NCBI GenBank assembly: GCA_030524545.1
Contig: JAUNGM010000034.1
Coordinates: 1-45,108, forward strand
DNA length: 45,108 nucleotides
Source: Eubacteriales bacterium
GTDB taxonomy: Bacteria > Bacillota > Clostridia > Lachnospirales > Lachnospiraceae
Direction: 5' to 3'
Numbering within the stretch: position 1 is the stretch's first letter; every line of letters begins with the position of its first letter. Below are positions 3 through 40,033 of this stretch, one piece after another. The notes under the pieces were generated by a model that ran no database searches, was not told where the DNA came from, and saw nothing but the letters and a program-made list of their open reading frames with translations. A program made the translations under genes and the position numbers.

Positions 3-1520
3 CTTGCGGATCGCGCTGGAGAGGCAGGCTGCGGAGGAACCGGAAGAATCGTCCTAAATGACCAGGGCGGGAGCCGTATGGATGTGACCGAGGAGGTCGC
101 CTGTACCCTGCGGGCAGAGGCACACCATCCCCCATGCGTGATGGAGGCGGCCGGGTTCTGTACGGAGCATTCCGCACAGTCGCGGGGCATTGGGTATGAA
201 GAAGAAACCTCCCCTACGCTGCGGGCCGGAGTCGTTCCGGCGGCGGTCGCATTGGAGAACCACCCGGCGGACAGCCGTGTGAAGATTTCCGAGGACGATA
301 AGGTACAGACACTGACTGGCCGGATGGGGACTGGCGGCGGGAACGTGCCGCTGGTCATGGCTGAGTCGGGGGAACCGCCAGAAGCCGAGATGTATGAGAA
401 CCACTCACAGGATACCCGGTATAAAGGACCGCTGGACACAGCACCTACGGTCAATGCCACTTATGGCATGGGCGGCAATAACCAGCCTTTTATAGTTGAA
501 AAACCAAAGACAATGAAAATCCGCAGCGGATGTGACGGTGGGGGAAAAGGCATTTTATTACAGGATGATAAATCAGCGACTCTTGGTTGCAACAATGACC
601 AGACGGTGTTTGTGCCGTTCTGCAAAGGGACGCGCCCGCATTCAGCTGAGGAAGGCCAGGCTTGGAAAGAGGGGGATGTGGCAAACACGCTGAACACCTT
701 TGATGTCGGGGAAACCCGGTGCAGTGAACTGGTGGTAGGCGCGTTTGGCATATGCTCCAAGGACAGCAATGCCATGAAGTCAGACAATCCGAAATCCGGA
801 TTTTACGAAGCGCAGACCAGCCGGACGCTGGATGCGAATGGCGGGAATCCGGGCTGCAACCAGGGTGGGATTGCCATTGTTGCCTTTGCACAGAACCAGA
901 GGGACGAAGTCCGGGATCTTGGGGATAAGTCCGGCGCACTTGCGGCAGAACCGGGAATGAAACAGCAGACCTATGTCCTGCAGGGCAGCATGATCGGCAG
1001 GGAGGACAAGAATGGACCACAGGGCAGCGGTGTCAATGAAGATGTGTCTTTTACACTGGATGCGGCCGACCGCCATGCTGTGGCTTATTGCATGACTACC
1101 GGGGAATATTCCCAGGTGGTGAAGGAAAAAGCACCGACTTTGATGGCGAGGGATTATAAAGACCCGCCAGTGGTAAATGATAAGCCCGCACCCGAACCAT
1201 ACTATATTGTGCGCCGCCTGACTCCGACCGAGTGTGCAAGACTTCAGGGCTTCCCGGACTGGTGGTGCGGCGGCCTTGGAATCGAGGAACCGACCGCAGA
1301 AGAAATAGAGTTCTGGATGGAAGTGTGGGAAACACACCGGAAGGTCATGGGGACATCCAAAAAGCCGAAGACCGAGAAACAGATCCGGAAATGGCTGGCG
1401 GACCCATATTCGGATTCCGCAGAATATAAACTCTGGGGAAATGGAATCGCGCTGCCGTGTGCGTATTTCGTACTGGCTGGTATTGCCTGGGCTGCACAGT
1501 GCGGGGTAGAAACGGAGTAA
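3..1520 (+). CDS. DNA (cytosine-5) methyltransferase, 3' part (5' end outside window)
   Basis: The frame is open from the first complete codon of the window, so the gene begins upstream and only the C-terminal ~505 residues are visible. The last ~150 residues carry C5-methyltransferase motif IX (RRLTPTECARLQGFPDWW) and motif X (GNGIALPCAYFVLAG), which complete the SAM and DNA-binding fold. The catalytic PCQ and ENV motifs must lie upstream and cannot be checked here. Between them is a long low-complexity stretch of about ten degenerate repeats of the form acidic-x-T-L-x-A...(P)-V-V, for example EEETSPTLRAG, GDVANTLNTF and NEDVSFTLDAADRHAV. Phage enzymes of this type probably protect phage DNA from host restriction. 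Family assignment is secure; target specificity is unknown. Confidence 0.88.
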   Translation, partial: LADRAGEAGCGGTGRIVLNDQGGSRMDVTEEVACTLRAEAHHPPCVMEAAGFCTEHSAQSRGIGYEEETSPTLRAGVVPAAVALENHPADSRVKISEDDKVQTLTGRMGTGGGNVPLVMAESGEPPEAEMYENHSQDTRYKGPLDTAPTVNATYGMGGNNQPFIVEKPKTMKIRSGCDGGGKGILLQDDKSATLGCNNDQTVFVPFCKGTRPHSAEEGQAWKEGDVANTLNTFDVGETRCSELVVGAFGICSKDSNAMKSDNPKSGFYEAQTSRTLDANGGNPGCNQGGIAIVAFAQNQRDEVRDLGDKSGALAAEPGMKQQTYVLQGSMIGREDKNGPQGSGVNEDVSFTLDAADRHAVAYCMTTGEYSQVVKEKAPTLMARDYKDPPVVNDKPAPEPYYIVRRLTPTECARLQGFPDWWCGGLGIEEPTAEEIEFWMEVWETHRKVMGTSKKPKTEKQIRKWLADPYSDSAEYKLWGNGIALPCAYFVLAGIAWAAQCGVETE

Positions 1521-1609
1521 TGAACGATGGCGGAGGACATCTTTGCTGCCGATGGGGAACCATAAGCAGCAGGGCGGGCTTCTGCCATGATACATAGGAG
1601 GGGATGCTT

Positions 1610-1780
1610 ATGGGATGGCTGATTGCCGCGGCTGCCGTTTTTGTAATTCTTGCGTTCATCGTTACCCTTTCCCTCTGTATGGCAGCCGGGGATGAGGATG
1701 ATGATGCGGAACAGATGAAATGGATACAGGACATTGAGGAAAAGCGCAGAAAACGGAATGATGACAGTAACCTACACTAA
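1610..1780 (+). CDS. Small single-pass membrane protein (56 aa)
   Basis: A 56-codon gene starts at an ATG six bases after an AGGAGGGG ribosome site. Residues 3-25 are a continuous hydrophobic segment (WLIAAAAVFVILAFIVTLSL) followed by CMAAGDEDDD and a charged, basic tail, so it should sit in the membrane with its C-terminus probably in the cytoplasm. The hydrophobic helix plus C-x-A-A-G-x-x-D pattern recalls the short DUF3789-type phage and mobile-element proteins, but this is only a resemblance. The stop codon lies inside the left arm of an 11-bp inverted repeat. Function unknown. Confidence 0.6.
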   Translation: MGWLIAAAAVFVILAFIVTLSLCMAAGDEDDDAEQMKWIQDIEEKRRKRNDDSNLH

Positions 1781-1875
1781 TGCACAATTCTCACCCACGG
1801 ATTTGTGCATTAGGTCAATTCCGCACATTTGCGGGGATAGCCGTTGACTTATCCCGGCTTTAGAGTGATTAATAC
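1777..1875 (+). promoter_or_regulatory. Regulatory element copy 1: inverted repeat plus promoter
   Basis: A perfect 11-bp inverted repeat, CTAATGCACAA (1777-1787) and TTGTGCATTAG (1803-1813), lies about 30 bp upstream of TTGACT (1844-1849). Twelve bases further is AGAGTGATTAATAC (1862-1875), which contains a TAATAC -10-like hexamer. The same arrangement recurs before many genes of this phage. It should drive the gene starting at 1935. The inverted repeat could be an operator or, as it overlaps the previous stop codon, a hairpin. Confidence 0.55.
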
Positions 1876-1934
1876 CATACGCCAAAGAACACCGGCGAAA
1901 AAGCCGGAGAGAACGAAGAAAGGAGCGGCAGGAC

Positions 1935-2867
1935 ATGATGAAATTTGAAAAGAACATAGAGGAGAGAAAGATTTTAGTGAAACGGTTGGGAGAACTTACG
2001 GGGATTGCCCCTTACTACACAAAGGTTCCAAGATGCGCCTATGAGATCGGCGCTTATACGGTGGAGCGTGACGGCAGCCTTATGGTAGAAAAGGATGAGG
2101 CAGACCTTGGAATCCTTGCAGCCCTGAAAAATGAGGGACTGATCAAGGATGCAGAGGGAATCCTCGAAGCGGCAGCGGAAGAACCAGGGCAGACAGAGGA
2201 AACAGCAGAGATAGATTCTATCCCGGACAGCGAATACGAGTCAGAGGTTCGGGAAGAGGCAGCCGCCCAGGAGGGAGAGGAACCGCTGGACATGGTGATC
2301 AGCCTACCGATGGGAAATCACACAGGAAATACTTTAAGAAACCTTGTGAACATGATCTACAGCAGGGGCCCACTTCTTAGCAAAGCATCCGACGGACACT
2401 TCCGTGTGGAGAAGGAACTGGCAGAGATTCTGAAAGATGATGCCAGCACCGCCACAGTCCAGAGCTTTTTGACAGCACTGGCAGATTATACGGAAACGCA
2501 CGGCGGTATGGAGGGGCTTAAGATTACGGATGAGCAGATTTCCTTCACAGGATTTCCGGTGCCGGCGGATAAAGCACACTCCGATGCGTTCTGCCAGCTG
2601 GCTGCTATGATGAATGACATGGCACTTTCACAGAAACGGATTCAGGCAAAAGAGGTCAACACGGATAATGAAAAATACGCATTCCGCATCTGGCTTCTCC
2701 GCCTGGGGATGAATGGGGATGCCTACAAATCTACCAGAAAGGTACTGATGCAGAACCTTGGCGGCCACACCGCTTTCCGCACACCAGAGGAAGCAGAAAA
2801 GGCAAAGGCGAAAAATAAAGCGAAGCGTGAGGCGGAAAAGACAATGGCAGGAGGTGGGGAGTCATGA
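1935..2867 (+). CDS. Amidoligase-related protein without catalytic motif (310 aa)
   Basis: Proteins of this kind are often labelled virulence-related in mobile elements. Residues 1-75 form an N-terminal region, 75-118 an acidic linker (many E and A), and 119-310 a C-terminal region resembling the amidoligase encoded 460 bp downstream. SLPMGNHTGNTLRNLVN here matches HISGQGHTPQTIRNLVN there, and YAFRIWLLRLGMNGDAYK matches YALRCWMLRLGFIGDEFK. The HxH pair of the amidoligase (H120, H122) is not preserved, nor are its IGVEIE and EMVTP motifs, so this copy is probably not an enzyme. I infer a partner or regulatory subunit. The start is the first of two adjacent ATGs after GGAG. It overlaps the next gene by ATGA. 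Confidence 0.7.
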   Translation: MMKFEKNIEERKILVKRLGELTGIAPYYTKVPRCAYEIGAYTVERDGSLMVEKDEADLGILAALKNEGLIKDAEGILEAAAEEPGQTEETAEIDSIPDSEYESEVREEAAAQEGEEPLDMVISLPMGNHTGNTLRNLVNMIYSRGPLLSKASDGHFRVEKELAEILKDDASTATVQSFLTALADYTETHGGMEGLKITDEQISFTGFPVPADKAHSDAFCQLAAMMNDMALSQKRIQAKEVNTDNEKYAFRIWLLRLGMNGDAYKSTRKVLMQNLGGHTAFRTPEEAEKAKAKNKAKREAEKTMAGGGES

Positions 2868-3082
2868 TGGAAAATATCTGCAAACTGGCATACCAGAAGG
2901 CGGTAGATGCCATTGATGGGACGGAGCAGGTGTATTTTAAGCATGGGTTCTGGAACCCCTATGAACTGAAACCAACGGAGGAAGTGAAAAAACGGATTAT
3001 GAACAGCGGGTATGGCGCAGATGTGGACCGGAAGGACGGGATGCTTTATGTGTTCTGCCCATGCAGTTCGGATATGTGGTAA
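2864..3082 (+). CDS. Small conserved-type hypothetical protein (72 aa)
   Basis: This gene begins at the ATG overlapping the stop of the preceding gene (ATGA) and has AGGAGGTG a few bases upstream, so the two are translationally coupled. The protein is 72 residues with no signal peptide or membrane segment. It ends in an aromatic and cysteine-rich stretch (GMLYVFCPCSSDMW). I do not recognise the family. Its position between the amidoligase-like gene and the amidoligase suggests a role in the same pathway, but nothing in the sequence proves it. Confidence 0.6.
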   Translation: MMENICKLAYQKAVDAIDGTEQVYFKHGFWNPYELKPTEEVKKRIMNSGYGADVDRKDGMLYVFCPCSSDMW

Positions 3083-3190
3083 ACCGCAGTTTCCCGCAAA
3101 TGGGGCCGGGACATAATGAGGCACCTTCTCCATTGTAAGTGATATTACCTCTGAAAATGTGCATTATCAAGTGCTTTTCCCGCCATAAAA

Positions 3191-3271
3191 TACACACTTT
3201 TTGCCTCTGATCTTTGGTACATTTATGCCCGCTATCAACTTGCTATTATCTGCGTTCAGAGTGATATATAG
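3191..3271 (+). promoter_or_regulatory. Regulatory element copy 2
   Basis: TACACAC (3191) and TTGGTAC (3214-3220) form the degenerate upstream inverted-repeat pair. They are followed by TTGCTATTAT (3240-3249) and AGAGTGATATATAG (3258-3271). The element lies between the stop at 3082 and the amidoligase start at 3331 and is the likely promoter of the amidoligase operon. Confidence 0.5.
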
Positions 3272-3330
3272 ACACAACAAAAGAGCAGAAAACACCGCAG
3301 GCAAGCGGGTTAGCAAAGGAGATAACGAGC

Positions 3331-4266
3331 ATGAACGAAAAGACAAGAGCGCAGATTGAGGCAATGAAAAACCAGACCATCGGAGTCGAGATAGAAATGA
3401 ATAACATCACCAGGGAAAAGGCAGCGAAGAAAGCAGCCGAGTTCTTTGGAACCGGCAGATATGAAAACACCGCAGGCCGGAACGGATATTTCACCTGGTC
3501 AGCATGGGACGCACAGGGGAGGGAATGGAAGTTCCAGAGGGATGTCAGCATTGAGGGGCCGGACAGCCAAAAATGCGAGATGGTCACCCCGATCCTGATT
3601 TACGATGACATCGAAACGCTCCAGCAGCTTATCAGAGTCCTCCGTAAAGCAGGAGGACGGAGTTCCGCAAGCAGAGGGTGCGGAGTCCACATTCATATTT
3701 CAGGGCAGGGGCATACGCCACAGACAATCCGGAACCTGGTCAACATCATGGCAGCCCATGAGGAACAGCTGACGCAGGCGGTCCGGATCGACCGATGGAG
3801 ACAGAGCCGGTATTGCCGGACGGTAGACCCGGCTTTCCTGGAACGACTGAACCGGATTAAGCCGAAGACCATGGAGGCACTCAGCCGGTGCTGGTACAAC
3901 GGGTCGAGGGACACCTCACATTACTCACCAACACGTTATCGGATGCTGAACCTCCATAGTTTTTTCAACCGCTATCATACAATCGAATTCCGGCTCTTCC
4001 AGTTTGATGAACCGGGAGACGGAAGGCAGGGAGGACTTCATGCAGGCCAGCTCAAAGCGATGATTCAGCTTTGCCTTGCGATGAGCGAGCTTGCAAAAGA
4101 ACTGCGGTACGCAAGCCCGAAAAAGCAGCAGGACGAAAACGTGGCTTACGCATTACGGTGCTGGATGCTACGGTTGGGATTCATCGGGGACGAGTTCAAA
4201 ACCGCAAGAGATTATTTCATGCGGAACGCAGAAGGGAACTGCGCATGGAGGCATGGGAGACCGTAA
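3331..4266 (+). CDS. Amidoligase family protein (COOH-NH2 ligase)
   Basis: Amidoligases of the glutamine-synthetase-like fold join a carboxylate to an amine at the cost of ATP, making peptide-like or isopeptide bonds on small molecules or proteins. Expected family motifs are visible: IGVEIEMN (residues 17-24), the metal/ATP-binding acidic strand; CEMVTP (82-87); GCGVHIHISG (116-125), the HxH strand; and TIEFRLF near residue 218. The last ~45 residues (YALRCWMLRLGFIGDEFK onward) match the end of the 310-aa protein encoded upstream. Start: ATG after AAAGGAG. Downstream lie a DpnD/PcfM-like gene and two gamma-glutamylcyclotransferases, a context known from comparative genomics of amidoligases. 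The substrate is unknown. Confidence 0.85.
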   Translation: MNEKTRAQIEAMKNQTIGVEIEMNNITREKAAKKAAEFFGTGRYENTAGRNGYFTWSAWDAQGREWKFQRDVSIEGPDSQKCEMVTPILIYDDIETLQQLIRVLRKAGGRSSASRGCGVHIHISGQGHTPQTIRNLVNIMAAHEEQLTQAVRIDRWRQSRYCRTVDPAFLERLNRIKPKTMEALSRCWYNGSRDTSHYSPTRYRMLNLHSFFNRYHTIEFRLFQFDEPGDGRQGGLHAGQLKAMIQLCLAMSELAKELRYASPKKQQDENVAYALRCWMLRLGFIGDEFKTARDYFMRNAEGNCAWRHGRP

Positions 4267-4341
4267 AAACCAGGCATGGCATACATAGATACTTCCGGGC
4301 GGACAACCGCCCCTGGGGTGGTAGAAGGAGGCGAAAATATC

Positions 4342-4605
4342 ATGAAAAACGAAAACAGGATGAAACATATGGATGCTGTCCCAAGAGGCAGGGCATTTAA
4401 AGTGACGGTGTCGGAACTTTACCAGAGGGAGATCACCGTATACGAATCAGAGATGAAGGAAGCAACACCGGAGGAAGCCCTCCGCATGGTGGAGAACTGG
4501 TGGCAGGACAGCCAGATCGATTTAAACGAAGCTGATTTCCAGGGTGTGGATTATTCCGTGACTGGAATAGAGGAAGCACTGAAAGAAACGGAAGGCGGTG
4601 AGTAG
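4342..4605 (+). CDS. DpnD/PcfM-like small protein (87 aa)
   Basis: The start chosen is the ATG nine bases after AGGAGG; an upstream in-frame ATG at 4276 has no ribosome site. The sequence FKVTVSELYQREITVYESE followed by EEALRMVENWWQ and DLNEADFQGVDYSV fits the DpnD/PcfM-like family of short beta-strand/helix/beta-strand proteins found in phages and conjugative elements. Their biochemical role is not established. The gene is 75 bp after the amidoligase and is followed after one base by the cyclotransferase gene, so it belongs to the same operon. Confidence 0.6.
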   Translation: MKNENRMKHMDAVPRGRAFKVTVSELYQREITVYESEMKEATPEEALRMVENWWQDSQIDLNEADFQGVDYSVTGIEEALKETEGGE

Positions 4606-4606
4606 C

Positions 4607-5155
4607 ATGGCAGGAATGTTCTCCCTGGGGCTTAGCACAGGGGCAGCGAGGAAACCGAACCGTTTTTATCTGGCCTACGGTTCCAACCTTTCCCTGGAAC
4701 GGATGAAAAGCCGCTGCCCGGATGCCGTGGTGCTTGGCACCGCCGTCATTCCCGGTTATCGGCTTCTGTTCAAAAAGAGCAAGACCGGAAGCTACGCAAC
4801 CATTGAGCAGGATGCCAACTGCTGTGTCCCTGCACTGGTCTATAGGATCTCAGAAATGGATGAAGCCCTGCTTGACCGCTATGAGGGCTATCCCCGGTAC
4901 TATTATAAGCGGAATTTCCGTCTTTCTGTCACGAGGCTGGATTCCGGCCGGCGGATGAAGGAAAGGAAATGTTGCATGGCCTATGTGTTACACGAGGAAC
5001 GCACCCTTGGGGAACCGGACATGGAGTATTTCCGGCTTTTGGATGAAGGGTACGGCGCGTGGAATTTTGACACCGATATTCTGGATAGGGGGCTGGCGGA
5101 TAGTATCGGGATCAGGGCTGCGGGAGAATACATAGAACGCTACCAGCGAGGGTAA
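4607..5155 (+). CDS. Gamma-glutamylcyclotransferase-like protein, copy 1
   Basis: GGCT/AIG2-like enzymes cyclise gamma-glutamyl amines to release 5-oxoproline. The glycine-rich substrate loop YGSN is present (AYGSNLSLERMKSRCPDA, residues ~25-42), as is the segment with the catalytic Glu (LDRYEGYPRYYYKR). The length of 182 aa is normal plus a ~20-residue N-terminal extension. ATG 4607 has AAGGCGG eight bases upstream; the GTG at 4598 lies inside that site. The gene starts one base after the preceding stop. With the amidoligase it suggests a make-and-break pair acting on a gamma-glutamyl-type amide bond, which is an inference from context. Confidence 0.85.
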   Translation: MAGMFSLGLSTGAARKPNRFYLAYGSNLSLERMKSRCPDAVVLGTAVIPGYRLLFKKSKTGSYATIEQDANCCVPALVYRISEMDEALLDRYEGYPRYYYKRNFRLSVTRLDSGRRMKERKCCMAYVLHEERTLGEPDMEYFRLLDEGYGAWNFDTDILDRGLADSIGIRAAGEYIERYQRG

Positions 5156-5157
5156 AG

Positions 5158-5239
5158 TACACAATCTGTGGCCGGTACATTTGGTAAGTTTATAGCGCAG
5201 AAACTGCTTGCTATTATCGGTCAAAAGAGTGATTAATAC
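5158..5239 (+). promoter_or_regulatory. Regulatory element copy 3
   Basis: TACACAA (5158-5164) follows the stop of the first cyclotransferase. GGTACATTTGG follows, then TTGCTATTAT (5208-5217) and AGAGTGATTAATAC (5226-5239). It separates the two cyclotransferase genes, so the second has its own promoter. Confidence 0.5.
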
Positions 5240-5279
5240 CATACCGCCGGAGAATGGCGGAAGAAAGGAGAGAAAGCAA

Positions 5280-5774
5280 ATGAGCAAGAAAAGATACTAC
5301 ATAGCTTATGGCAGCAACCTATCGGTGAAACTGATGGCTTACAACTGCCCGGATGCAAAAGTGATCGGGACGGGGGAGATCAAAGATTATGCATTGCTGT
5401 TTAAGAGCTGTGCAACCATTGAGCCGAGGAAAGGAAAACGGGTGCAGGTACTGGTCTGGGAGATTTCGACGGAGGATGAAAAAAGTCTGGACCGCTACGA
5501 AGGCTATCCCACATTATACTATAAAAAAGAACTGACGCTGCCGGTTCAGATTACCGGCACGGAGGTGAAGCAGGAACTGACTGCGATGGTGTACATCATG
5601 AATGAAAAAAACCGTCTTGCCAGTCCATCATGCTACTACTACAAAGTGCTGGCAGACGGCTATGAAGATTTTGGGTTTGACAAAGCAATTTTAGAACAGG
5701 CTCTTGCGGACAGCATTGGGAAACAAGTAGCCGGGAAATTTTTAAATAGCTATCTGGACGATTGCAGGAGGTAG
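5280..5774 (+). CDS. Gamma-glutamylcyclotransferase-like protein, copy 2
   Basis: This 164-aa paralogue of the gene at 4607 has the substrate loop near its N-terminus (YYIAYGSNLSVKLM) and the catalytic-Glu segment (LDRYEGYPTLYYKK). The in-frame upstream extension to 5208 lies inside the promoter element and is rejected; ATG 5280 follows AGGAGAGAAAGCAA. The two cyclotransferases differ throughout, so this is an old duplication or two separate acquisitions, possibly with different substrates. It is followed after 3 bp by a ribbon-helix-helix gene. Confidence 0.85.
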   Translation: MSKKRYYIAYGSNLSVKLMAYNCPDAKVIGTGEIKDYALLFKSCATIEPRKGKRVQVLVWEISTEDEKSLDRYEGYPTLYYKKELTLPVQITGTEVKQELTAMVYIMNEKNRLASPSCYYYKVLADGYEDFGFDKAILEQALADSIGKQVAGKFLNSYLDDCRR

Positions 5775-5777
5775 CAG

Positions 5778-6413
5778 ATGGGAAAAAAGAATCTGAATAT
5801 CAAGCTGCCGGAGTCCATGCTGGATAAGCTGGAAACCATCCGCAGGGAGCGGAGCCGGCAGGAAGGGCGCAGGGTTTCCAGAAACAGCCTGATCGAAGAG
5901 GCGATAGAAGAATACCTTACGGCAGCAGAGAAATTTCTGGAGGGATTGTTTCAGGAAGGCACTTTAGAACCGGATCAGCCGTACCGGATTACGGTGCGGG
6001 AGTTCCTTGGCAGGCACGCGGATGACAGGATATCCATGATGACACCGGGAGGGTATGTGGATTTGGATAAAACGCAAACAGAACGGCTCCTTTCCGGCCA
6101 GACGGTAAAAGCCCATCCCGGATGCAGGGAGGATTTCCGGGATGCTCCTGCGGAGGAACTTCTGCCGCAGGGCGTTCTGTCGGCACATCTGCGGGATGGA
6201 GTGTGGCAGCTTCTGACAGATACTGGGTGCGGTACAGAAACGATTCGCACCGTCTGCTATGACACAGAGGATATCTGGAAGAGCCGTGAGCAGGCAAAAC
6301 AGTTTTTCCTGCGAGCCATGGCATCTTCGGAGGGCAGCGAGAAGGAACGATACACGAATCTTTATATGAAACTGATGATGGGGATGAATGACTGTGACGA
6401 TTCGGAGGTGTGA
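5778..6413 (+). CDS. Ribbon-helix-helix protein with C-terminal unknown domain (211 aa)
   Basis: Residues 1-50 fit a MetJ/Arc/CopG ribbon-helix-helix DNA-binding domain: the strand NLNIKLPESMLDKLETI, then helices ending in RNSLIEEAIEEYL. The remaining ~150 residues are an unrecognised domain ending in a helical segment (FFLRAMASSEGSEKERY). The start has AGGAGG eight bases upstream, and the gene lies 3 bp after the second cyclotransferase. As a likely transcription factor inside this region it is a candidate regulator of the repeated TACACAA...TTGTGTA elements. That link is a guess. Confidence 0.65.
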   Translation: MGKKNLNIKLPESMLDKLETIRRERSRQEGRRVSRNSLIEEAIEEYLTAAEKFLEGLFQEGTLEPDQPYRITVREFLGRHADDRISMMTPGGYVDLDKTQTERLLSGQTVKAHPGCREDFRDAPAEELLPQGVLSAHLRDGVWQLLTDTGCGTETIRTVCYDTEDIWKSREQAKQFFLRAMASSEGSEKERYTNLYMKLMMGMNDCDDSEV

Positions 6414-6415
6414 GC

Positions 6416-6865
6416 ATGGTATTTCCAAAGAGAGAGATCGTGGAGAAAATCAGAAAGGAATATCCGGCCGGCTGCGAGGTGGTGCTTGACTGGATGAATG
6501 ACTGCCAGGCACCGCCAGTAGGGACACACGGAACCGTGAAGTCAGTGGATGATACTGGAAGCATCGAAGTCGCATGGCACACAGGCGGCAGCCTGCGGGT
6601 GGTCTATGGGGAGGATGCCTGCCACCGTATCGACACGGATGTGATAGTAAAAGAATTTCTGGATGAATATGGGAAAACGCAGATTGGAGGGAGCTGCCCA
6701 CGCTGCGGAAGCCTCATGCCGCATTTGGAGCGCCATGCGGTCAGCCGGAGGGCGCACATCATTGTATGCGATCTGTGTGGAACGGAGGAGGCGTTGGAGG
6801 ACGCCGGCATGGCGGAAAAGAAACCGCTGTTTACATGGGCGGCATGGAAGGAGAGAAGAAAATGA
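6416..6865 (+). CDS. DUF4314-like protein with C-terminal zinc ribbon
   Basis: The N-terminal ~75 residues fit the DUF4314 pattern: DWMNDCQAPPVGTHGTVKSV, then a D-x-G...V-x-W-x-x-G-x-S-L strand and YGEDACHRI, a small SH3-like beta barrel of unknown role. The C-terminal part has two cysteine pairs, CPRC and CDLC, separated by ~28 residues and so likely binding zinc. ATG 6416 is chosen over GTG 6410 because GGAGG at 6404-6408 is correctly spaced only for the ATG. It overlaps the next gene by ATGA. Confidence 0.65.
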   Translation: MVFPKREIVEKIRKEYPAGCEVVLDWMNDCQAPPVGTHGTVKSVDDTGSIEVAWHTGGSLRVVYGEDACHRIDTDVIVKEFLDEYGKTQIGGSCPRCGSLMPHLERHAVSRRAHIIVCDLCGTEEALEDAGMAEKKPLFTWAAWKERRK

Positions 6866-7050
6866 GCCACAGAAAAATGCCCGCTTACGGAGAGCGTGAG
6901 CATAGGGGCAGATACATACTGGATGATTACTGTTGGTCCAGAAACCATTGCAGGGCGGCCACGATCCGCCGTTGGAAACGGAACCTGAAAAAGAAAGCCA
7001 GGGCAAAGATGCGGATGCGGCTTGTACGGATGGAAGGGGGATATGAATAA
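6862..7050 (+). CDS. Small basic hypothetical protein (62 aa)
   Basis: This gene begins with the ATGA that overlaps the preceding stop, and its stop overlaps the next start. The product is strongly basic (many R and K, for example RRWKRNLKKKARAKMRMR) with two cysteines and no membrane segment. It may bind nucleic acid, but no family is recognised. Support for it being real comes from tight coupling to both neighbours. Confidence 0.5.
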   Translation: MSHRKMPAYGEREHRGRYILDDYCWSRNHCRAATIRRWKRNLKKKARAKMRMRLVRMEGGYE

Positions 7051-7249
7051 GATGGATGCGAAAGAATGGAAAACGGGCGATACCTGCTTTGTGATCACCA
7101 ATAAGAAAAAGCAACAGTCAATGGAATATAAAGTTCTGTCCTTCGATGGCAGGTATTATTTTCTGGAAAGCCGGACAGGAAGCCACATCAACGCTTCTTC
7201 ATCCCGGATGTTCCGGTCAAAGGAAGAAGCATCTGCTTCCATCGGATAG
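7043..7249 (+). CDS. Small hypothetical protein (68 aa)
   Basis: The start is taken as ATG 7043, after GGAAGGGGG; an in-frame upstream start at 7022 lacks a site. The gene overlaps the preceding one by eight bases. The sequence alternates short beta-type strands (WKTGDTCFVIT, MEYKVLSFDGRYYFLE) and ends MFRSKEEASASIG, suggesting a small beta-barrel. The family is not recognised. Confidence 0.5.
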   Translation: MNKMDAKEWKTGDTCFVITNKKKQQSMEYKVLSFDGRYYFLESRTGSHINASSSRMFRSKEEASASIG

Positions 7250-7258
7250 GAGACGGTC

Positions 7259-7474
7259 ATGTTGCAGAAACCAATGCCGGGAACGGCACGGATAAAAAGG
7301 AACAGCTGGAACAGGGGAAACGGTGTGTACAGTATGAGAGGCGAACTGAAAAGAGGAATCGCCCTCAATAAGAAGCGCCTGAACCGGAAGGTAAGGTATG
7401 GAAGAAAATGCGCCTTGAAAAAGGGCTGCTATAAGCGTATATGCAGGACAGCGAACATGGTGGATTTTTCTTAA
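7259..7474 (+). CDS. Small highly basic hypothetical protein (71 aa)
   Basis: This gene starts nine bases after the previous stop with a GGAGACGG site. It is rich in Arg and Lys, with C-terminal cysteines (RKCALKKGCYKRICRTANMVDF). It is probably the last gene of the transcription unit, since a regulatory element follows. No family or function is recognised. Confidence 0.45.
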   Translation: MLQKPMPGTARIKRNSWNRGNGVYSMRGELKRGIALNKKRLNRKVRYGRKCALKKGCYKRICRTANMVDFS

Positions 7475-7572
7475 AGAGAAAACAGGGCCCGGTGATCATC
7501 CGGCTCTCCCTCCAGTTTACCGTATATTCGCTCTGAAAGAGAATTTTATCAAGAGGATTTTGAACCATAATG

Positions 7573-7654
7573 TACACAATCTCTGGATGGGATGTCTGGT
7601 ACATATATGGCAGTGGAACTGCTTGCTATCCTCTGGAAGTGACGGTAATATGGC
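7573..7654 (+). promoter_or_regulatory. Regulatory element copy 4
   Basis: TACACAA (7573-7579) and GGTACATATATGG are followed by TTGCTATC (7623-7630) and GAAGTGACGGTAATATGG. It is a more diverged copy, placed directly before the gene at 7685. Confidence 0.45.
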
Positions 7655-7684
7655 ATCAACAAAAACGAAGGAGGGATTCCATAA

Positions 7685-8227
7685 ATGCAATGGAGAATTG
7701 ATAAAACAGTCAGGGAGAAGGCGTTGAAATTCAAGGCAGACTATGAAAAACTTTTTGAAGATATGAGTGTGCCGATGCAACAGCTTGCGAGTGAGGTTAA
7801 CCAGTATCTGAAGCGGGAAAATTTATGGAATGACCAGGAGGCGATCCTGAATGTGATCCGTGTACTGCCGCCGGGAAGCTATTACGGTTGGCGTCTTTTT
7901 ACCCATTATTACCGGATTACAGACAAGCCGGATGTAATCATTTCCAATTTCGAATGTGAAGTCTGGAAGGTAGACCGGGATGTGTTGATGAAGATCCAAA
8001 ATGTTGCAGAAGAATATGAAAAAAATGAGAAACATTTGCGCCGGATGCATAAGAAAGCGGAACAAGAAATCATGGAATATCTTAAGAGCACTGGCTTATG
8101 GGATGACCTGGAGGCGGTACATGAAATGCGGTGCTGCCTGCCATTATGTCTTTTACAGGATAATCTGAACAAACGCTACTATGAATTATTCATGAAAGAA
8201 AATGGGGATTTGGCGGACGAAGATTAG
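7685..8227 (+). CDS. Hypothetical protein with internal duplication (180 aa)
   Basis: The protein is soluble and mostly helical. Two segments repeat: EVNQYLKRENLWNDQEAILN (residues ~38-57) and EIMEYLKSTGLWDDLEAVHE (~120-139), each followed by a short ...LP turn, indicating a duplicated helical unit. The charged middle (EEYEKNEKHLRRMHKKAEQE) could form a coiled coil linking the halves. The family is not recognised. It stands alone between two copies of the regulatory element, so it is expressed as a single-gene unit. Confidence 0.55.
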   Translation: MQWRIDKTVREKALKFKADYEKLFEDMSVPMQQLASEVNQYLKRENLWNDQEAILNVIRVLPPGSYYGWRLFTHYYRITDKPDVIISNFECEVWKVDRDVLMKIQNVAEEYEKNEKHLRRMHKKAEQEIMEYLKSTGLWDDLEAVHEMRCCLPLCLLQDNLNKRYYELFMKENGDLADED

Positions 8228-8249
8228 TTTCTTCATCCAGAAATAATGA

Positions 8250-8346
8250 ACAGTTTTCTGCAGATATCTTTGTGTACATTATGACTCAGGATTGACTTGA
8301 TAATATGTGCTTTTAGAGCGAATATGTCACTACCGAAAGGGAAAAC
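8250..8346 (+). promoter_or_regulatory. Regulatory element copy 5 with conserved leader
   Basis: ACAGTTTT (8250) and TTGTGTAC (8270-8277) form the upstream pair. TTGACT is at 8292-8297, AGAGCGAATATG at 8314-8325, then the leader CACTACCGAAAGGGAAAAC. The leader is nearly identical in copies 5, 7, 8 and 9 and runs to the ribosome site ACGGAGG. Confidence 0.6.
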
Positions 8347-8368
8347 AAAGAAAACGGAGGAAATGAAC

Positions 8369-8824
8369 ATGAAGAGATTAAGCAAAAACGAAGTGGAGAG
8401 TCTGGTGGAGATCGCAAAAAAACACATTTATTCGGTTGAGGCCAGAGGGGATCTGGAAACCCGCGACAATGACAGCGAGGATTTTCTGGATGTTTCCGTC
8501 TGGAGCATCAAGGCGGCATTGGAAGCCGCTTATGAACTTGGAAAAGAAAGCAGCCAGAACAAACGCGGCGGCAGGAAAATATCCCTGACAACGGCAGACG
8601 GGATTCCGGAGAGCTTAAGCAACCTTTGGTACACTGGTGACTGCGACATTGCAGTTTTCACGGATGCGGTTGAGGACAGCCGGACGGGGGCAGAACTGGT
8701 CAGGAACCTTGGCAGGCTGAAACTTTTCAGAAAGTTCGCACTTCACAAAGAAACGGATGCCAAGATCAGGCTGAAGGGCACAGACCACATGGGAAACATC
8801 AGCTACCTGACAGTTACAAAATAA
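8369..8824 (+). CDS. DUF6900-like N-terminus plus unknown C-terminal domain (151 aa)
   Basis: The start chosen is ATG 8369, eight bases after GGAGG; ATG 8363 is too close and the longer frame from 8297 lies in the promoter. Residues ~10-55 (IAKKH..., LETRDNDSEDF, DVSVWSIKAALEAAYELGK) look like the small DUF6900 domain of Firmicutes mobile elements. The second half (DGIPESLSNLWYTGDCDIAV...) is unrecognised. The function of both parts is unknown. The gene is a single-gene cassette with its own promoter element and a following hairpin. Confidence 0.55.
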   Translation: MKRLSKNEVESLVEIAKKHIYSVEARGDLETRDNDSEDFLDVSVWSIKAALEAAYELGKESSQNKRGGRKISLTTADGIPESLSNLWYTGDCDIAVFTDAVEDSRTGAELVRNLGRLKLFRKFALHKETDAKIRLKGTDHMGNISYLTVTK

Positions 8825-8832
8825 GGACCAGA

Positions 8833-8885
8833 AAACAGGCAGGGGCAAGGGGCTGGAACGGCCGGCCTTTTGCTCGTGCCTGTTT
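8833..8885 (+). terminator. Long hairpin after the 8369 gene
   Basis: AAACAGGCA (8833-8841) pairs with TGCCTGTTT (8877-8885) around a further GC-rich inner stem (GGCTGGAACGGCCGG). There is no clean U-run after the outer stem, so it may act as a terminator or as an mRNA 3' protecting structure. Confidence 0.5.
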
Positions 8886-8898
8886 GATTTCACAAAAT

Positions 8899-8998
8899 GC
8901 ACAGTTTTTCTTTGGAATGATTGTGTACATTATGATTTGGATATGAGTTGCTATTATCGGGATATGACGGTAATATGTGTCACACCAAAGGGGAACAA
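8899..8998 (+). promoter_or_regulatory. Regulatory element copy 6
   Basis: GCACAG (8899) and TTGTGTAC (8921-8928) are followed by GAGTTGCTATTATC, then ATGACGGTAATATGTG and the leader CACACCAAAGGGGAACA. It precedes the gene at 9024. Confidence 0.5.
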
Positions 8999-9023
8999 CC
9001 CCAAATTAAGGAGGACACAGAAT

Positions 9024-9488
9024 ATGAAGAAAAATAATTTTGCAGAGGAATACGCACGGGAGGCGGCGATCAAGGCACAGTACCATGAGGCTGAAAAGGC
9101 AGGCAGCCGGGAAGGTCAGGAAGCCGCGCAGAACGCTTACCATGAATTGGAGGCGCAGATCGCAGCAAAGGGGAATTTTTACGCAAGAATCTACCGGCTT
9201 TACAGCGAGGCACAGGAACGGGGCAACGAATACATCGATTTAAACGATACCATTTGGGATGAGCAGGTAAAGCCGCTGATCGGCAGCCTCCGGGAATACG
9301 GCATTGAAAAATTTACTTTTTCTTCCACCTGGTCTTCTGCGGTGGAAACCGCATGGCTTTTCACACAGAACGGATGCAGGCTGGAAGGGCTGGTGGAGAT
9401 AAACCGCCGCCACAAAGCATTTATGAGCGACGAATATGAGAAAGCCCACGGCTACCTTTTTTCCATTGGGGATGCAGCGGACAAATAA
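9024..9488 (+). CDS. Hypothetical protein (154 aa)
   Basis: ATG 9024 follows AGGAGGACACAGAAT; the longer frame from 8937 overlaps the promoter and is rejected. The N-terminal ~55 residues are helical and charged (EEYAREAAIKAQYHEAEK). The remainder has a regular alpha/beta pattern with EKFTFSSTWSSAVETAWLF and GCRLEGLVEINRR. No membrane segment is seen. I cannot name the family with confidence. It is a single-gene cassette bounded by regulatory elements. Confidence 0.55.
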   Translation: MKKNNFAEEYAREAAIKAQYHEAEKAGSREGQEAAQNAYHELEAQIAAKGNFYARIYRLYSEAQERGNEYIDLNDTIWDEQVKPLIGSLREYGIEKFTFSSTWSSAVETAWLFTQNGCRLEGLVEINRRHKAFMSDEYEKAHGYLFSIGDAADK

Positions 9489-9791
9489 AGCGTAATCGGC
9501 CGGAAAAGGGGCGGTAAGCCCCTGAAGGCTGTTGCCGGAAAAAGCCCCGGATGCCGGGTTAAAAGCCGGACACGGGCGGTTGTGGAGGCACTGTGAGGGG
9601 AGTAAAAAGCAGGAGGAAGAAGCAGTGGAATATAAAGATTACCGCAGGAGGAAAAAGCCGGCGGATAAAATACACAATTTCCCCATCTTATCTTTGTGCA
9701 TCCTATTCCCGTAATTGACTTGCTATATGTGCAAAACAGAGCGAATATGTCACTACCGAAAGGGAAAACAGAGAAAACGGAGGAACACAGC
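9489..9791. other. Intergenic region with short hairpins and element copy 7
   Basis: This 303-bp stretch has no convincing gene. It contains a small hairpin (GGGGC 9508-9512 with GCCCC 9518-9522), further CCGG-rich repeats, and then the regulatory element at 9671-9770. A 29-codon frame from GTG 9625 has an AGGAGG but runs into the element and is doubtful. Confidence 0.5.
9671..9770 (+). promoter_or_regulatory. Regulatory element copy 7 with conserved leader
   Basis: TACACAA (9671-9677) and TTTGTGCA (9693-9700) form the upstream pair. TTGACT is at 9715-9720, AGAGCGAATATG at 9738-9749, then CACTACCGAAAGGGAAAAC. It is almost identical to copy 5 from TTGACTTG onward. Confidence 0.6.
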
Positions 9792-10067
9792 ATGAAAGCA
9801 TATTACGATTTTGAAGAGATCACCAGCATGGAGAACCTGCAGTTGAAAGTCAGTTCATACGGGGCAGTCCTGAGATATGGGGATAAAGTTCTGGTAACGG
9901 ATATCGCATGGAAGGGATTTGCGGCAGCGGTTTACGAATTTGTGGAAAGCCCGGAGGAAGATGGGCTGGCGGATATTGAGTGCCGGTTAAGCCTTCTGGA
10001 GATGACGGATGAGGTTTTTGAGGACGGAGGCCACGCCATTGCATGGTGCATGGAAAAAGCAAAATAG
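9792..10067 (+). CDS. Small hypothetical protein (91 aa)
   Basis: ATG 9792 follows CGGAGGAACACAGC. The protein is acidic and probably alpha/beta (VSSYGAVLRYGDKVLVTDIA, AAAVYEFVESPEEDG). No known family is recognised. It is a single-gene cassette: promoter element copy 7 upstream and a long hairpin immediately after the stop. Confidence 0.55.
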   Translation: MKAYYDFEEITSMENLQLKVSSYGAVLRYGDKVLVTDIAWKGFAAAVYEFVESPEEDGLADIECRLSLLEMTDEVFEDGGHAIAWCMEKAK

Positions 10068-10080
10068 GGTGGAGAGATTC

Positions 10081-10136
10081 AAAGCAGACAGGGGAAAGCG
10101 GCTGGAAAAGACCAGCCTTTTTCCTCTGTTTGCTTT
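10081..10136 (+). terminator. Long hairpin after the 9792 gene
   Basis: A 25-base arm (10081-10105, ending AAAGCGGCTGG) pairs almost fully with 10112-10136 (starting CCAGCCTTTTTCC), with a six-base loop. It probably ends transcription between this gene and the next promoter element. Confidence 0.6.
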
Positions 10137-10145
10137 CTCATAAAG

Positions 10146-10245
10146 TACACAATTTCCCCTCCGTATCTTTGGTACATTTATGGATCAGAATTGACTGGAT
10201 AATGTGCAAAACCAGAGGTAATATGCTACTACCGAAAGGGAAAAC
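10146..10245 (+). promoter_or_regulatory. Regulatory element copy 8 with conserved leader
   Basis: TACACAA (10146-10152) and TTGGTAC (10169-10175) are the upstream pair. TTGACTGGATAAT starts at 10191, AGAGGTAATATG is at 10214-10225, then CTACTACCGAAAGGGAAAAC. Using TGGATA and TAATAT as -35 and -10 the spacer is 17 bp; using TTGACT it is 22 bp. Confidence 0.6.
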
Positions 10246-10268
10246 AAAGAAAAACGGAGGAACATACC

Positions 10269-10592
10269 ATGAGAAACATTTACACACTGAGAAATGAGTT
10301 CAGCCTTAGAAATTACAATACGGAGATCACCAGAGCAGATTTTGAAGCCCATTTTACCAAAACAAAGGAGCGCATCGAATTTACTTTCAACGGTTGGGAC
10401 GGAAAAAGTTATGACGGCGAGAGCCGCAAGGCATACATTTACCGGACAGACATTCCGGGTTACGAGGAAGCAAGGTTTATCAAAGTTGGCAAGCATCTGC
10501 ATTTCATTGACGAGGAAAGCAGCGTTTTGGAAAAGGCAACCGGAGCCGTCCACAAGACAGTGGGATGGCTGGTGGATGTCGAGAGGGCATGA
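10269..10592 (+). CDS. Small hypothetical protein (107 aa)
   Basis: ATG 10269 follows CGGAGGAACATACC. The protein is rich in short strands (RIEFTFNGWDGKSYDGESRK, KAYIYRTDIPGYEEARFIKV) and has no membrane segment. The family is not recognised. It is followed 21 bp later by another small gene with its own GGAGG site, so the two are co-transcribed from element copy 8. Confidence 0.55.
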   Translation: MRNIYTLRNEFSLRNYNTEITRADFEAHFTKTKERIEFTFNGWDGKSYDGESRKAYIYRTDIPGYEEARFIKVGKHLHFIDEESSVLEKATGAVHKTVGWLVDVERA

Positions 10593-10613
10593 TAGGAAAC
10601 GGAGGTTACGGTA

Positions 10614-10850
10614 ATGTTAGCAGAAGGAACGATTGGAATTCAGGAAAACGGAAAAATGGTGGCCTGCCATTATAAGGTGAAATATTATAATGAACCGAGC
10701 CGCTTCGGTATTGAAGGCGGGCGGATTTCCAAATTGACGATCCGCAGGGAAGGAGAATTTACCTGCAATTATGACAGGGGATGGGATGTGGAACCGGAAG
10801 ATGAAGCGACTCAAATGGCTGTTGCTATCCTGATAAAAGAATACAACTAA
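10614..10850 (+). CDS. Small hypothetical protein (78 aa)
   Basis: ATG 10614 follows GGAGGTTACGGTA. The product is a short beta-rich protein (MVACHYKVKYYNEPSRFG, ISKLTIRREGEFTCNYDRGW) ending in a helix. No family is named with confidence. It is the second gene of a two-gene unit with 10269, and a hairpin follows its stop. Confidence 0.5.
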   Translation: MLAEGTIGIQENGKMVACHYKVKYYNEPSRFGIEGGRISKLTIRREGEFTCNYDRGWDVEPEDEATQMAVAILIKEYN

Positions 10851-10863
10851 ATTTCCCACCAGT

Positions 10864-10891
10864 GAAACAGTGCCCGGAAAGGGGCTGTTTC
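10864..10891 (+). terminator. Hairpin after the 10614 gene
   Basis: GAAACAG (10864-10870) pairs with CTGTTTC (10885-10891) around a CCC/GGG inner stem with a GGAAA loop. Its inner sequence CCCGGAAAGGGGC is shared with the hairpin at 11416, so the 3' structures of these cassettes are related. There is no strong U-run. Confidence 0.5.
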
Positions 10892-10901
10892 TCGTAGTAA
10901 A

Positions 10902-11000
10902 ACAGACAATTTTCTCCCTTATCTTTGTGTACATTATGGCACAGAATTGACTGGATAATTATGTGTTTCAGAGGTAATATGCTACTACCGAAAGGGAAAA
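10902..11000 (+). promoter_or_regulatory. Regulatory element copy 9 with conserved leader
   Basis: ACAGACAA (10902) and TTTGTGTAC (10924-10932) are the upstream pair. TTGACT is at 10947-10952, AGAGGTAATATG at 10970-10981, then CTACTACCGAAAGGGAAAAC. It precedes the gene at 11025. Confidence 0.6.
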
Positions 11001-11024
11001 CAGAGAAAAACGGAGGAAACGGAC

Positions 11025-11405
11025 ATGGCAAAAAGAATGAGCAGGAAGGCGCAGGTTTACCTTACAAAGATTAAAGCGGCGTCAAATGAATATGACCTGA
11101 AAGGAATTGAAATCACAATCAAGAAGGACACGGCACTTGAATGGCCAGAGTTTATGAAGCTGAACAGCGCCATTGAGGAAAAAAGAGTCGGCCTTCGCAC
11201 GGATCAGGAATCAGCGAAACTGAAGGAACTGGTTTTCTTCCGGGCGAAAACGGAACTGGACGGCTATCTGATGATGAAGGACGGGGAAAGGTACACGAAA
11301 GAGGAAACGGAGCACCAGAGGGAGCGCTTTTGCAGCATCTACCAGATCATTGAGGAGGCAGAACTTGAAGATGAATATGACGCATGGAAACAGGTAAACG
11401 CATAA
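11025..11405 (+). CDS. Hypothetical protein (126 aa)
   Basis: ATG 11025 follows CGGAGGAAACGGAC. The protein is soluble, highly charged and mostly helical, with no recognised domain (AKRMSRKAQVYLTKIKAA at the start, a charged E-E-A-E-L-E-D-E tail). It is the last small cassette gene before the packaging operon. A hairpin and then a separate terminator follow, so transcription is probably closed off before TerS. Confidence 0.5.
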   Translation: MAKRMSRKAQVYLTKIKAASNEYDLKGIEITIKKDTALEWPEFMKLNSAIEEKRVGLRTDQESAKLKELVFFRAKTELDGYLMMKDGERYTKEETEHQRERFCSIYQIIEEAELEDEYDAWKQVNA

Positions 11406-11415
11406 ACATTGCGGC

Positions 11416-11503
11416 AGACACACGCCCCGGAAAGGGGCTGTGTCTTGTTATCCCCGTTTTTATATAGACTGATTTCTTGAGGACTTCTTAGGAGGTCCTT
11501 TTT
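11416..11503 (+). terminator. Hairpin pair ending the small-gene region
   Basis: AGACACA (11416-11422) pairs with TGTGTCT (11439-11445) around CCCC/GGGG. A second hairpin, GGACTTC (11481-11487) with GAGGTCC (11492-11498), is followed by TTTTT and looks like a standard rho-independent terminator just before the terminase genes. Confidence 0.6.
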
Positions 11504-11537
11504 GTTTGCCCATTTTGGAGGAAAGGAGGGATGCCGG

Positions 11538-12014
11538 ATGGCGACAAGGGGAAGAAAACCGACACCTACAGCAGTGAAAGAGCTGGAGGGGAATCCGGGC
11601 AAGCGGCCATTGAATGCGAAAGAACCGAAACCAGCCAAGAAGGCTCCGTCCTGCCCGAAGTGGCTGGAGCCGGAGGCAAAGAAGGAGTGGCGGCGTCTGG
11701 CAAAGCAGATGGAGCAGATTGGCATCCTGACGGAAGTAGATATGGCCGCTTTTGCCGGATATTGTCAGGCGTATGCCCGGTGGAAAGAGGCGGAGGAATT
11801 CATCACGCAGCATGGCTCTATCGTAAAGACTCCTTCCGGGTACTGGCAGCAGGTGCCGCAGGTAAGCATTGCCCAGACCTATCTGAAAATCATGAACCGC
11901 TTTGCCGAGCAGTTTGGTCTGACGCCTTCCTCCCGGAGCCGGATCATCGCGGATACAGACAGCCGGGGTGATGCTCTGGATGAGATGGAGGAACTGTTGG
12001 GAGGTGGAAGCTGA
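11538..12014 (+). CDS. terS: Terminase small subunit, P27 family
   Basis: TerS binds phage DNA and loads the large terminase for packaging. The N-terminus GRKPTPTAVKELEGNPGKRP followed by P-x-CPKWLEPEAKKEWRRL is typical of the P27 family, as is the later helical part (AYARWKEAEEFI, YWQQVPQVSIAQTYLKIM). The length of 158 aa is usual. ATG 11538 is seven bases after GGAGGG; an in-frame upstream start and the out-of-frame ATG at 11531 are worse placed. The stop overlaps the TerL start by one base (TGATG). Confidence 0.9.
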   Translation: MATRGRKPTPTAVKELEGNPGKRPLNAKEPKPAKKAPSCPKWLEPEAKKEWRRLAKQMEQIGILTEVDMAAFAGYCQAYARWKEAEEFITQHGSIVKTPSGYWQQVPQVSIAQTYLKIMNRFAEQFGLTPSSRSRIIADTDSRGDALDEMEELLGGGS

Positions 12015-14670: not shown

Positions 14671-14698
14671 ATGGTCTTCATAGGATGAAAATAAGAAC

Positions 14699-14736
14699 TT
14701 GACTTCCTGCCCATCCAGAGTGATAGATAGGCTACC
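14699..14736 (+). promoter_or_regulatory. Core promoter element copy 10
   Basis: TTGACTT (14699-14705), twelve bases after the TTGACT hexamer AGAGTGATAGATAG (14717-14730), then GCTACC. The same core stands before the recombinase operon. No TACACAA/TTGTGTA pair is seen upstream. It should drive the gene at 14760. Confidence 0.5.
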
Positions 14737-33712: not shown

Positions 33713-33769
33713 CTGTCTGGACAAGTTTGGACAGAGTGAAAAAAGATGCGGTGGAAACAGCGGAATTGC

Positions 33770-39086: not shown

Positions 39087-39148
39087 AGATGCAAGATATG
39101 TAGTGTAATTTAACTGTTGAAAAAATTAAAAAAGAGGGAGCAAAAAAT

Positions 39149-40000: not shown

Positions 40001-40033
40001 TATGGTAAAATAGAAATACCGTAGAGAGTGAAT

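Follow-up and report, generated by a model that had tools for sequence, protein, structure and literature searches.

A repeated promoter element ahead of accessory genes in a phage contig with Ca. Heliusviridae genes

Introduction

What switches on the single accessory genes that stand ahead of the terminase genes in contig JAUNGM010000034.1 of the Eubacteriales bacterium assembly GCA_030524545.1 (Lachnospiraceae)? The window analysed here is this complete contig (C62 of its own genome, G000; 45,108 bases). A preliminary description, made from its letters alone, had noted nine copies of a composite element between 1777 and 11,000, each with an inverted repeat and -35-like and -10-like boxes and some with a leader, and had read them as a phage-wide regulon of moron-like genes under one DNA-binding regulator. 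Our preferred answer, to which we give a probability of about 0.68, is that the elements are promoters for the cassettes of a regulon spread across Heliusviridae and that a phage activator turns them on. No published description of these elements was found in literature text searches (subscription papers mostly outside); the strings AGAGTGATATATA and AGAGCGAATATG occurred there only in three papers under unrelated titles and CTACCGAAAGGGAAAAC nowhere. Heliusviridae have been described as a gut phage family that is widespread and linked to metabolic syndrome, and the word 'promoter' does not occur in the accessible portion of the main text that describes them (PMC9226167).

Results

Core promoter

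The nine repeats follow a single promoter design and are not an artefact. A first model, built from eight window copies (element 1 omitted), found copies elsewhere. A non-circular model was trained on 306 copies from outside the own genome, each at most 80% identical (ungapped) to the window copies, and recovered all nine elements at 16–52 bits (core model) and 24–71 bits (full model), together with four extra cores at 3172 (minus strand), 7554 (minus strand), 14697 and 33768. The weakest of the 13 window cores scored 12.7 bits (core model) and 17.0 bits (full model); the best of 20 dinucleotide-shuffled windows reached 8.4 and 7.4 bits, respectively. All nine elements lie where the preliminary description had placed them and in the order it gave, and the leader was present in the four copies for which it had been claimed (8330, 9753, 10229 and 10985; ACCGAAAGG starting at 8332, 9755, 10231 and 10987).

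Core positions were numbered from the A of ACTTGATA (position 0), with the -35 hexamer at 2–7, the -10 at 25–30 and 17 bp between them. The distance from ACTKGMTA to AGAG was exactly 12 nt in 243 of 246 scorable copies (272 in the set); in copy sets later than the 272 it was imposed. In a set of 164 non-redundant copies (up to 3 mismatches to the core accepted), T2, G4, G23 (-14) and A26 (-11) were invariant and AGAG (20–23; -17 to -14) was conserved at 95% or more at each position. The in-register -35 is TTGATA, TTGCTA or TGGATA, 17 bp from the -10. The TTGACT starting 5 bp further upstream in several copies was out of register.

The predicted start, 7 nt past the -10 (position 37), coincides with the first base of ACCGAAAGG. 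Searched from position 33, ACCGAAAGG was present in 63 non-redundant copies, every one of which had its first base at position 37 or 38; with two mismatches allowed, it stood at that place in 203 of 211 copies. We infer that transcription starts at its A. It was present in 48 of 118 non-redundant copies at loci chosen by the leader, 12 of 55 at loci chosen by the core and 3 of 11 at loci chosen by Ltr, a RinA/ArpU-like activator family of Gram-positive phages. Of 608 copies, 596 were followed by a ribosome site and start codon; the same held for 696 of 3040 randomly chosen places.

The standard sigma-A/sigma-70 test (at least 9 of 12 matches to TTGACA/TATAAT, 16–18 bp) accepted 1 of the 11 cores in 1500–12000 in register. 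A plain sigma-70 scan of the same interval returned 9 promoter-like sites, with 10.3 expected from shuffles; the in-register overlap was the divergent core at 3170 (minus strand), and another site overlapped element 3 in a different register. A second reading of the element, with TTGCTATTAT as an extended -10 and AGAG transcribed, was rejected: position 11, its would-be T-7, is T in 48% of copies, and by eye the TTGACT copies have no TTGCTATTAT-type box. Public phage records annotate small hypothetical proteins over the promoter element (L015 17775–17900, L013 20478–20576, L014 20428–20526); the L015 protein matches window element regions in a profile search, and L013 and L014 were judged by position only.

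Operator and classes of copies

The operator consists of 15-bp half-sites, CATAAACTACACAAA and TTTGTGTAGTTTATG, around a 14-bp gap (half-site score cut-off, 5). This dyad is longer than the TACACAA/TTGTGTA pair of the preliminary description, and the gap between those two heptamers, put at about 14 nt, measured 16 nt. The inverted repeat that all nine elements were said to share is found in most copies; element 1 is out of register, and copies 4, 5 and 6 have weak halves.

Class I comprised 264 non-redundant copies with the -35 TTGATA, TTGCTA, TGGATA or TGGCTA, and 185 of them held the half-site TTTGTGTAGTTTATG. The TTGACT copies held it in 2 of 32 (30 without), and shuffled upstream sequence in 22 of 1320. 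Fisher p for the half-site in weak -35 versus TTGACT copies was about 1e-12, the half-site matrix having been trained on the weak -35 copies. Measured back from position 0, the half-site began at 25–26 nt in 167 of these 185 copies, at 35–37 nt in 12 and elsewhere in 6. Of the 185, 111 also held a reverse-complement partner half, compared with 7 of 185 after shuffling; the gap between halves was 14 in 87, 24–25 in 18 and of another length in 6. In the window the best half-site stood at 25/26 in eight of nine copies, element 1 (TTGACT) being the exception. Four divergent core pairs were found among the 608 copies, all with 66–67 bp spacing; elements 2 and 4 of the window are of this kind, each with a second core mirrored across its operator.

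Because the spacings step by about 10 bp, a protein on one DNA face relative to the polymerase is suggested. Helical phasing together with the weak -35 favours an activator, and this geometry points to activation rather than repression.

Distribution among phages and genomes

The window phage shares the capsid, portal, protease and terminase genes of Ca. Heliusviridae. TerS, TerL, portal, protease and capsid families were common to window open reading frames (ORFs) and nine other phages, six of which are INPHARED records labelled Ca. Heliusvirales; the window member of the capsid family is an ORF of 214 amino acids (aa). Across 146 genomes of the order, the class I pattern was present in 10, a Heliusviridae-type portal in 13 and both in 7, i.e., the core in 7 of 13 portal genomes versus 3 of 133 portal-less ones (Fisher p about 8e-7; 1 genome with the reversed control). 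Core and portal lay on one contig in 5 of the 7, and the core-only genomes (G050, G089 and G124) had single or off-consensus sites. A loose core pattern gave 14 matches in the own genome, 13 of them on C62, C64 and C65, the contigs bearing Heliusviridae-type portals, and one on C13; the reversed pattern gave 0. A host-wide regulon of the core was rejected, as genomes lacking such phages hardly ever carry it.

Viral loci L016–L135 were chosen by a 17-mer of the leader and L153–L264 by the core, and counts on these are not natural frequencies; the operator was a selection criterion for L334 and L335 but not for these two sets. The leader 17-mer alone occurred in at least 120 viral-contig stretches. 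The preliminary description had proposed a profile search in related elements, and the profile was enriched in related phages. Cores lay downstream in 10 of 11 viral loci chosen by Ltr; the eleventh contig stops 2.5 kb past the Ltr gene.

The selection of four Streptococcus phages rested on Ltr, without regard to the core; their 140 kb contained 7 strict cores. No strict core was found in 346 kb at 20 other Ltr loci, hand-picked from a longer list and five of them shorter than 15 kb; at one of these 20, L399, which lies beside a Heliusviridae-type portal, the core was present in loose form. A looser pattern gave 14 matches in the 140 kb and 25 in the 346 kb, with no clear excess. In three of the Streptococcus phages a core precedes the small genes that lie ahead of the small terminase, in three a core precedes a recombinase gene, and once a core lies further upstream; all seven scored under the operator cut-off. 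At L403 13901 and L404 9801 and 14599, another common stretch, about ATATCTTYAAAATAAT (by eye), stood near the half-site position of the gut phages, an arrangement that would fit an exchange of the operator.

The operator-less form, CTTGACT-N12-AGAGTGATATATAG, was found in 69 viral-contig stretches and 35 genome-contig stretches (Streptococcus, Clostridium, Acholeplasma, Lactococcus and others). A serine recombinase-like start came next at 59 of 72 viral places (many of these copies near-identical), another ORF at 12 and none at 1; a backbone gene lay within the retrieved stretch at 14 of 104 class II loci. Since serine recombinases are served by this core as well, the regulon takes in more than moron-like genes. 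The earlier reading thus keeps its regulon of phage kind, extended to recombinases and beyond the phage of the window.

Two further loci were noted by the way. A 4,965-base contig of Lactococcus reticulitermitis (L359, the same positions as L329) carries three tandem operator-less cores, two of them before small ORFs (one DUF6900-like by eye), a minimal cassette array. L344 (G000 C64:52351), on the contig of another prophage, has a class I core and dyad ahead of a gene that looks SymE-like by eye.

Candidate regulators

An Ltr-like gene was present at the same place in 9 of 9 genomes with this region examined (seven match phrog_36, and the other two match those seven by sequence). In six phages, all 23 elements lay past the Ltr gene, in the same orientation. 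The window contig starts past the usual position of Ltr, and the usual place of the Heliusviridae DNA polymerase I, helicase and nuclease genes is upstream of its first base. As its 5' end falls inside a cytosine methyltransferase gene, the replication and regulator genes of the phage would lie off the contig.

An AlphaFold model of Ltr (eight sequences) had a mean pLDDT of 78.5, and its C-terminal domain resembled sigma region 4 (rmsd 1.3–2 Å over about 55 residues; best Foldseek E-value 0.13); the Ltr profile gave no match to PDB sequences at E 0.1. The sigma-region-4-like Ltr of this model is a candidate for the phage factor. Six Ltr-homologue loci were retrieved, one of them too short (L417); among the five usable ones, the three with the methyltransferase have cores and the two without methyltransferase or terminase have none.

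Comparison of the eight operator phages, several of them with partly covered genomes, brought out no further transcription-factor-like protein present in all; the DNA-acting proteins that they share include an HNH protein, a ParB-domain methyltransferase and the small terminase. An HTH_11 protein was rejected as regulator, being present in only 4 of the 8. At a similar place, L152 encodes a protein with a sub-threshold match to sigma-70 region 4 and L149 one without a Pfam match. The ribbon-helix-helix (RHH) protein at 5778, which the preliminary description had offered as a possible binder, was rejected as universal binder: its sole relative among 12 other phages was in L150 (blastp 1e-4), and operator elements occur in eight.

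Elements and genes in the window

Element 1 (core 1842–1872; plus strand, as are all elements and cores below unless noted) is of the operator-less type, with -35 TTGACT, AGAG and -10 GATTAA; its out-of-register dyad lies at 1781–1809 (offset 40, score -1.9). Its target, 1935–2867, is predicted to be amidoligase-associated (phrog_2443); the functions of the other products named below are likewise putative. Element 2 (3184–3268) has operator halves at 3184–3198 and 3213–3227 and a core at 3238–3268 (TTGCTA / GATATA) ahead of the putative amidoligase gene 3331–4266. The divergent core at 3142–3172 (minus strand; TTGATA / TAATAT) has this operator in common with it and points back over 2864–3082. 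Element 3 (5151–5236; halves 5151–5165 and 5180–5194; core 5206–5236, TTGCTA / GATTAA) precedes a putative gamma-glutamylcyclotransferase gene starting at 5281.

Element 4 (7566–7651) has halves at 7566–7580 and 7595–7609 (right half weak, score 1.0) and a core at 7621–7651 (TTGCTA / TAATAT) in which GACG replaces AGAG; its target is 7685–8227 (unknown). The common operator is again flanked by a divergent core, 7524–7554 (minus strand; TTGATA / GAATAT), pointing back over 7259–7474. Element 5 (8269–8346) consists of a right half at 8269–8283 (left half poor, score -5.3), a core at 8295–8325 (TTGATA / GAATAT) and the leader from 8332, and precedes a DUF6900 gene starting at 8370. In element 6 (8891–8976; halves 8891–8905, score 2.8 and under the cut-off, and 8920–8934; core 8946–8976, TTGCTA / TAATAT) GACG likewise replaces AGAG, and the target is a DUF7698 gene starting at 9024.

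Element 7 (9664–9769; halves 9664–9678 and 9693–9707; core 9718–9748, TTGCTA / GAATAT; leader from 9755) precedes an Nmad4 gene starting at 9792. Element 8 (10139–10245; halves 10139–10153 and 10168–10182; core 10194–10224, TGGATA / TAATAT; leader from 10231) precedes two targets, 10269–10592 (unknown) and a DUF7678 gene at 10614–10850. Element 9 (10896–11001; halves 10896–10910 and 10924–10938; core 10950–10980, TGGATA / TAATAT; leader from 10987) precedes 11025–11405 (unknown), the last gene ahead of the small terminase. Two operator-less cores, both TTGACT / GATAGA, lie further along: 14697–14727, between the terminase and portal genes (target 14760–15128), and 33768–33798, ahead of the serine recombinase array 33833–36799.

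Terminator-like hairpins numbered 19 in 1500–12000 against 11.7 expected (e.g., 10100–10117, 11424–11438 and 11479–11500). The interval 8230–11100 was without match in plasmids.

The large terminase (12014–14670) carries a LAGLIDADG homing domain ahead of the matched ATPase part, and the end of its nuclease domain sits in a second ORF, 14440–14670. A DUF4314 and a zinc-ribbon protein, two genes in relatives, are fused at 6410–6865; the DUF4314 family is present in 7 of the 8 operator phages and all four Streptococcus phages. In the recombinase row 33833–36799, a 138-aa piece and a 426-aa gene are accompanied by a recombinase split across two ORFs, 35381–36223 and 36224–36799 (the latter with the zinc ribbon). 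At the right end of the window, 37521–44188, are Sel1-repeat, DUF2971, HEPN (Apea-like) and Fic proteins, which look like defence or host-interaction cargo.

Discussion

In the mechanism that we propose, each element would be a complete promoter tied to Ca. Heliusviridae/Heliusvirales and their Streptococcus relatives, and would stand before individual accessory genes in the interval from the DNA methyltransferase gene to the terminase genes. The core (-35 and -10 boxes 17 bp apart, AGAG at -17 to -14) would be read by host RNA polymerase, and a phage-encoded protein would bind a half-site whose centre is near -56; many copies have a partner half-site around -85. In the common type, with its weak -35, the bound protein may touch the polymerase from the same DNA face and turn the gene on; a symmetric operator could serve a second, oppositely directed promoter. 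The operator-less type, with its better -35 (TTGACT), would act ahead of serine recombinases and some other genes. A DNA-binding regulator at the upstream inverted repeat, as first proposed, agrees with the operator data; it is probable that one shared factor serves all operator elements.

Several observations weigh against this reading. Core and portal lie on different contigs in G080 and G096, and the strict core was not found in 6 of the 13 portal genomes (one letter off in G035). With two mismatches allowed, the operator matched 21 places in the own genome and the reversed pattern 8; five of the 21 are elements. At least three Ltr subfamilies stand beside the same core and operator, two of them 13–15% identical to the first, and two loci whose Ltr homologues are 48–52% identical to the C65 type lack the core (neither locus matched Heliusviridae-type terminase, portal or methyltransferase). 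The term 'late promoter' is not established for the elements either, because the hairpin at 11479–11500 parts the last cassette from the small terminase and recombinases use the core.

The elements could nevertheless be late promoters proper, multiplied, under an Ltr (RinA/ArpU-like) activator, which we rate as less probable than the preferred reading. The Ltr-like gene found in every genome examined and lying upstream of all 23 elements in six phages, and the sigma-4-like fold predicted by the Ltr model, fit such promoters. The Ltr/RinA/ArpU proteins are small activators encoded upstream of late genes and needed for the late promoter, and in the accessible part of the source the known sites are direct repeats at one promoter ahead of the late genes (PMC13123087); here the conserved repeat is inverted, stands gene by gene and has spacing steps of about one helical turn. 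Because several Ltr subfamilies share one unchanged operator and two Ltr loci with other late modules lack the core, Ltr is doubtful as sole factor.

A related view is offered tentatively: the phage group may have its own promoter language (AGAG immediately before the -10, modified -35), read only when a phage factor, perhaps Ltr, reprogrammes the host polymerase, with the operator picking the cassettes. The upstream operator would then be exchangeable, TTTGTGTAGTTTATG in gut phages and another sequence in the Streptococcus relatives, and accessory genes would join the regulon by bringing a ready-made promoter.

Moron-style promoters in a quiet prophage, whose core host sigma-A would read alone while the inverted repeat bound a phage repressor or modulator, are an unlikely account. 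Such promoters would suit the single-gene cassettes, some with terminator-like hairpins behind them, the use of the core by serine recombinases, which are needed for lysogeny, and the diversity of the hosts, for which a common host sigma factor would suffice. They are at odds with the near absence of the core from genomes without such phages and with the sigma-70 scan, which found no more sites than expected and one core in register. Moreover, the operator is placed before the -35 and in phase with it, and most copies with the better -35 are without one, which is activator geometry.

Control at the RNA level, which the conserved leader had suggested, fared worse and is improbable. It would require the leader region to pair with the ribosome site, which would silence read-through RNA and leave RNA initiated at the element open to translation; pairing at the ribosome site silences read-through RNA in this way at gene e of phage T4. 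Complementarity was above shuffles: pairing of at least 6 bases between the pre-start region and the ribosome site occurred in 14 of 207 non-redundant copies (3.0 expected; maximum 9 in 300 shuffles), with various arms (TGTACCT, TGTGTAC, TGTGAC, TGTCAC, TGTGTC), and, in a smaller set, of at least 5 bases in 22 of 126 (9.7 expected; maximum 18 in 500 shuffles). These copies are a small minority, however, and at threshold 5 class I alone gave 18, under its shuffle maximum of 20; no Rfam match was found at gathering thresholds, the leader is present in 12 of 55 core-chosen copies, and the 5' arm lies outside an RNA started at the element. Least likely of all, the operator would be the site of a host regulator and not of the phage, which its identity beside different Ltr subfamilies, the excess of own-genome places at two mismatches and two of six matches at up to one mismatch outside elements (C47:25119 and C64:2269) would allow, but the other four, both perfect ones included, are phage elements, and the Streptococcus relatives retain the core with all seven copies under the operator cut-off.

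The preferred reading, cassette promoters under a phage activator, has parallels in known systems. The late promoters of phage P2, served by Ogr, a zinc-finger activator of enterobacterial phages, have a dyad near -55 and no good -35; they are several operon promoters, not cassettes. Nearest in design are the SAS/ESAS elements of Cluster K mycobacteriophages. In the accessible parts of two papers these are a repeated composite ahead of several genes, made up of an imperfect inverted repeat, sigma-A-like -35/-10 boxes at 17–18 bp, which a later analysis places within the inverted-repeat element, and a conserved stretch preceding the start codon; M. smegmatis has no copy of the SAS consensus (PMC3203893; PMC11373665). 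Both systems place a repeated inverted repeat and -35/-10 boxes ahead of several genes. They differ in sequence and hosts; as far as the same parts go, the mycobacteriophage repeat and -35/-10 form one 46–47-bp motif, and the conserved sequence stands at the start codon. In the present elements the -35 is preceded by the repeat, in helical phase with it; the leader coincides with the predicted start of transcription, and copies of one class carry no operator. The leader here, ACCGAAAGGGAAAAC, is visibly different from the SAS consensus GGGATAGGAGCCC, and we claim a likeness in working, not membership.

Nearest in mechanism is p4 at the phi29 late promoter A3, where, in the portion of the paper that was available, an inverted repeat (CTTTTT-15 bp-AAAATG) lies upstream of a promoter with a poor -35, at which p4 is required for stabilising the polymerase (PMC3100819). 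The inverted repeat upstream of a poor -35 is common to both; phi29 has, in the same portion, one regulated region with four p4 sites, and here there is a gene-by-gene array.

The promoter signature would provide a sequence handle for accessory genes in these phages, for the prediction of co-expressed sets and for activator hunting. Its rigid core and conserved AGAG may serve as a test case for a promoter preference that a phage imposes on the host polymerase.

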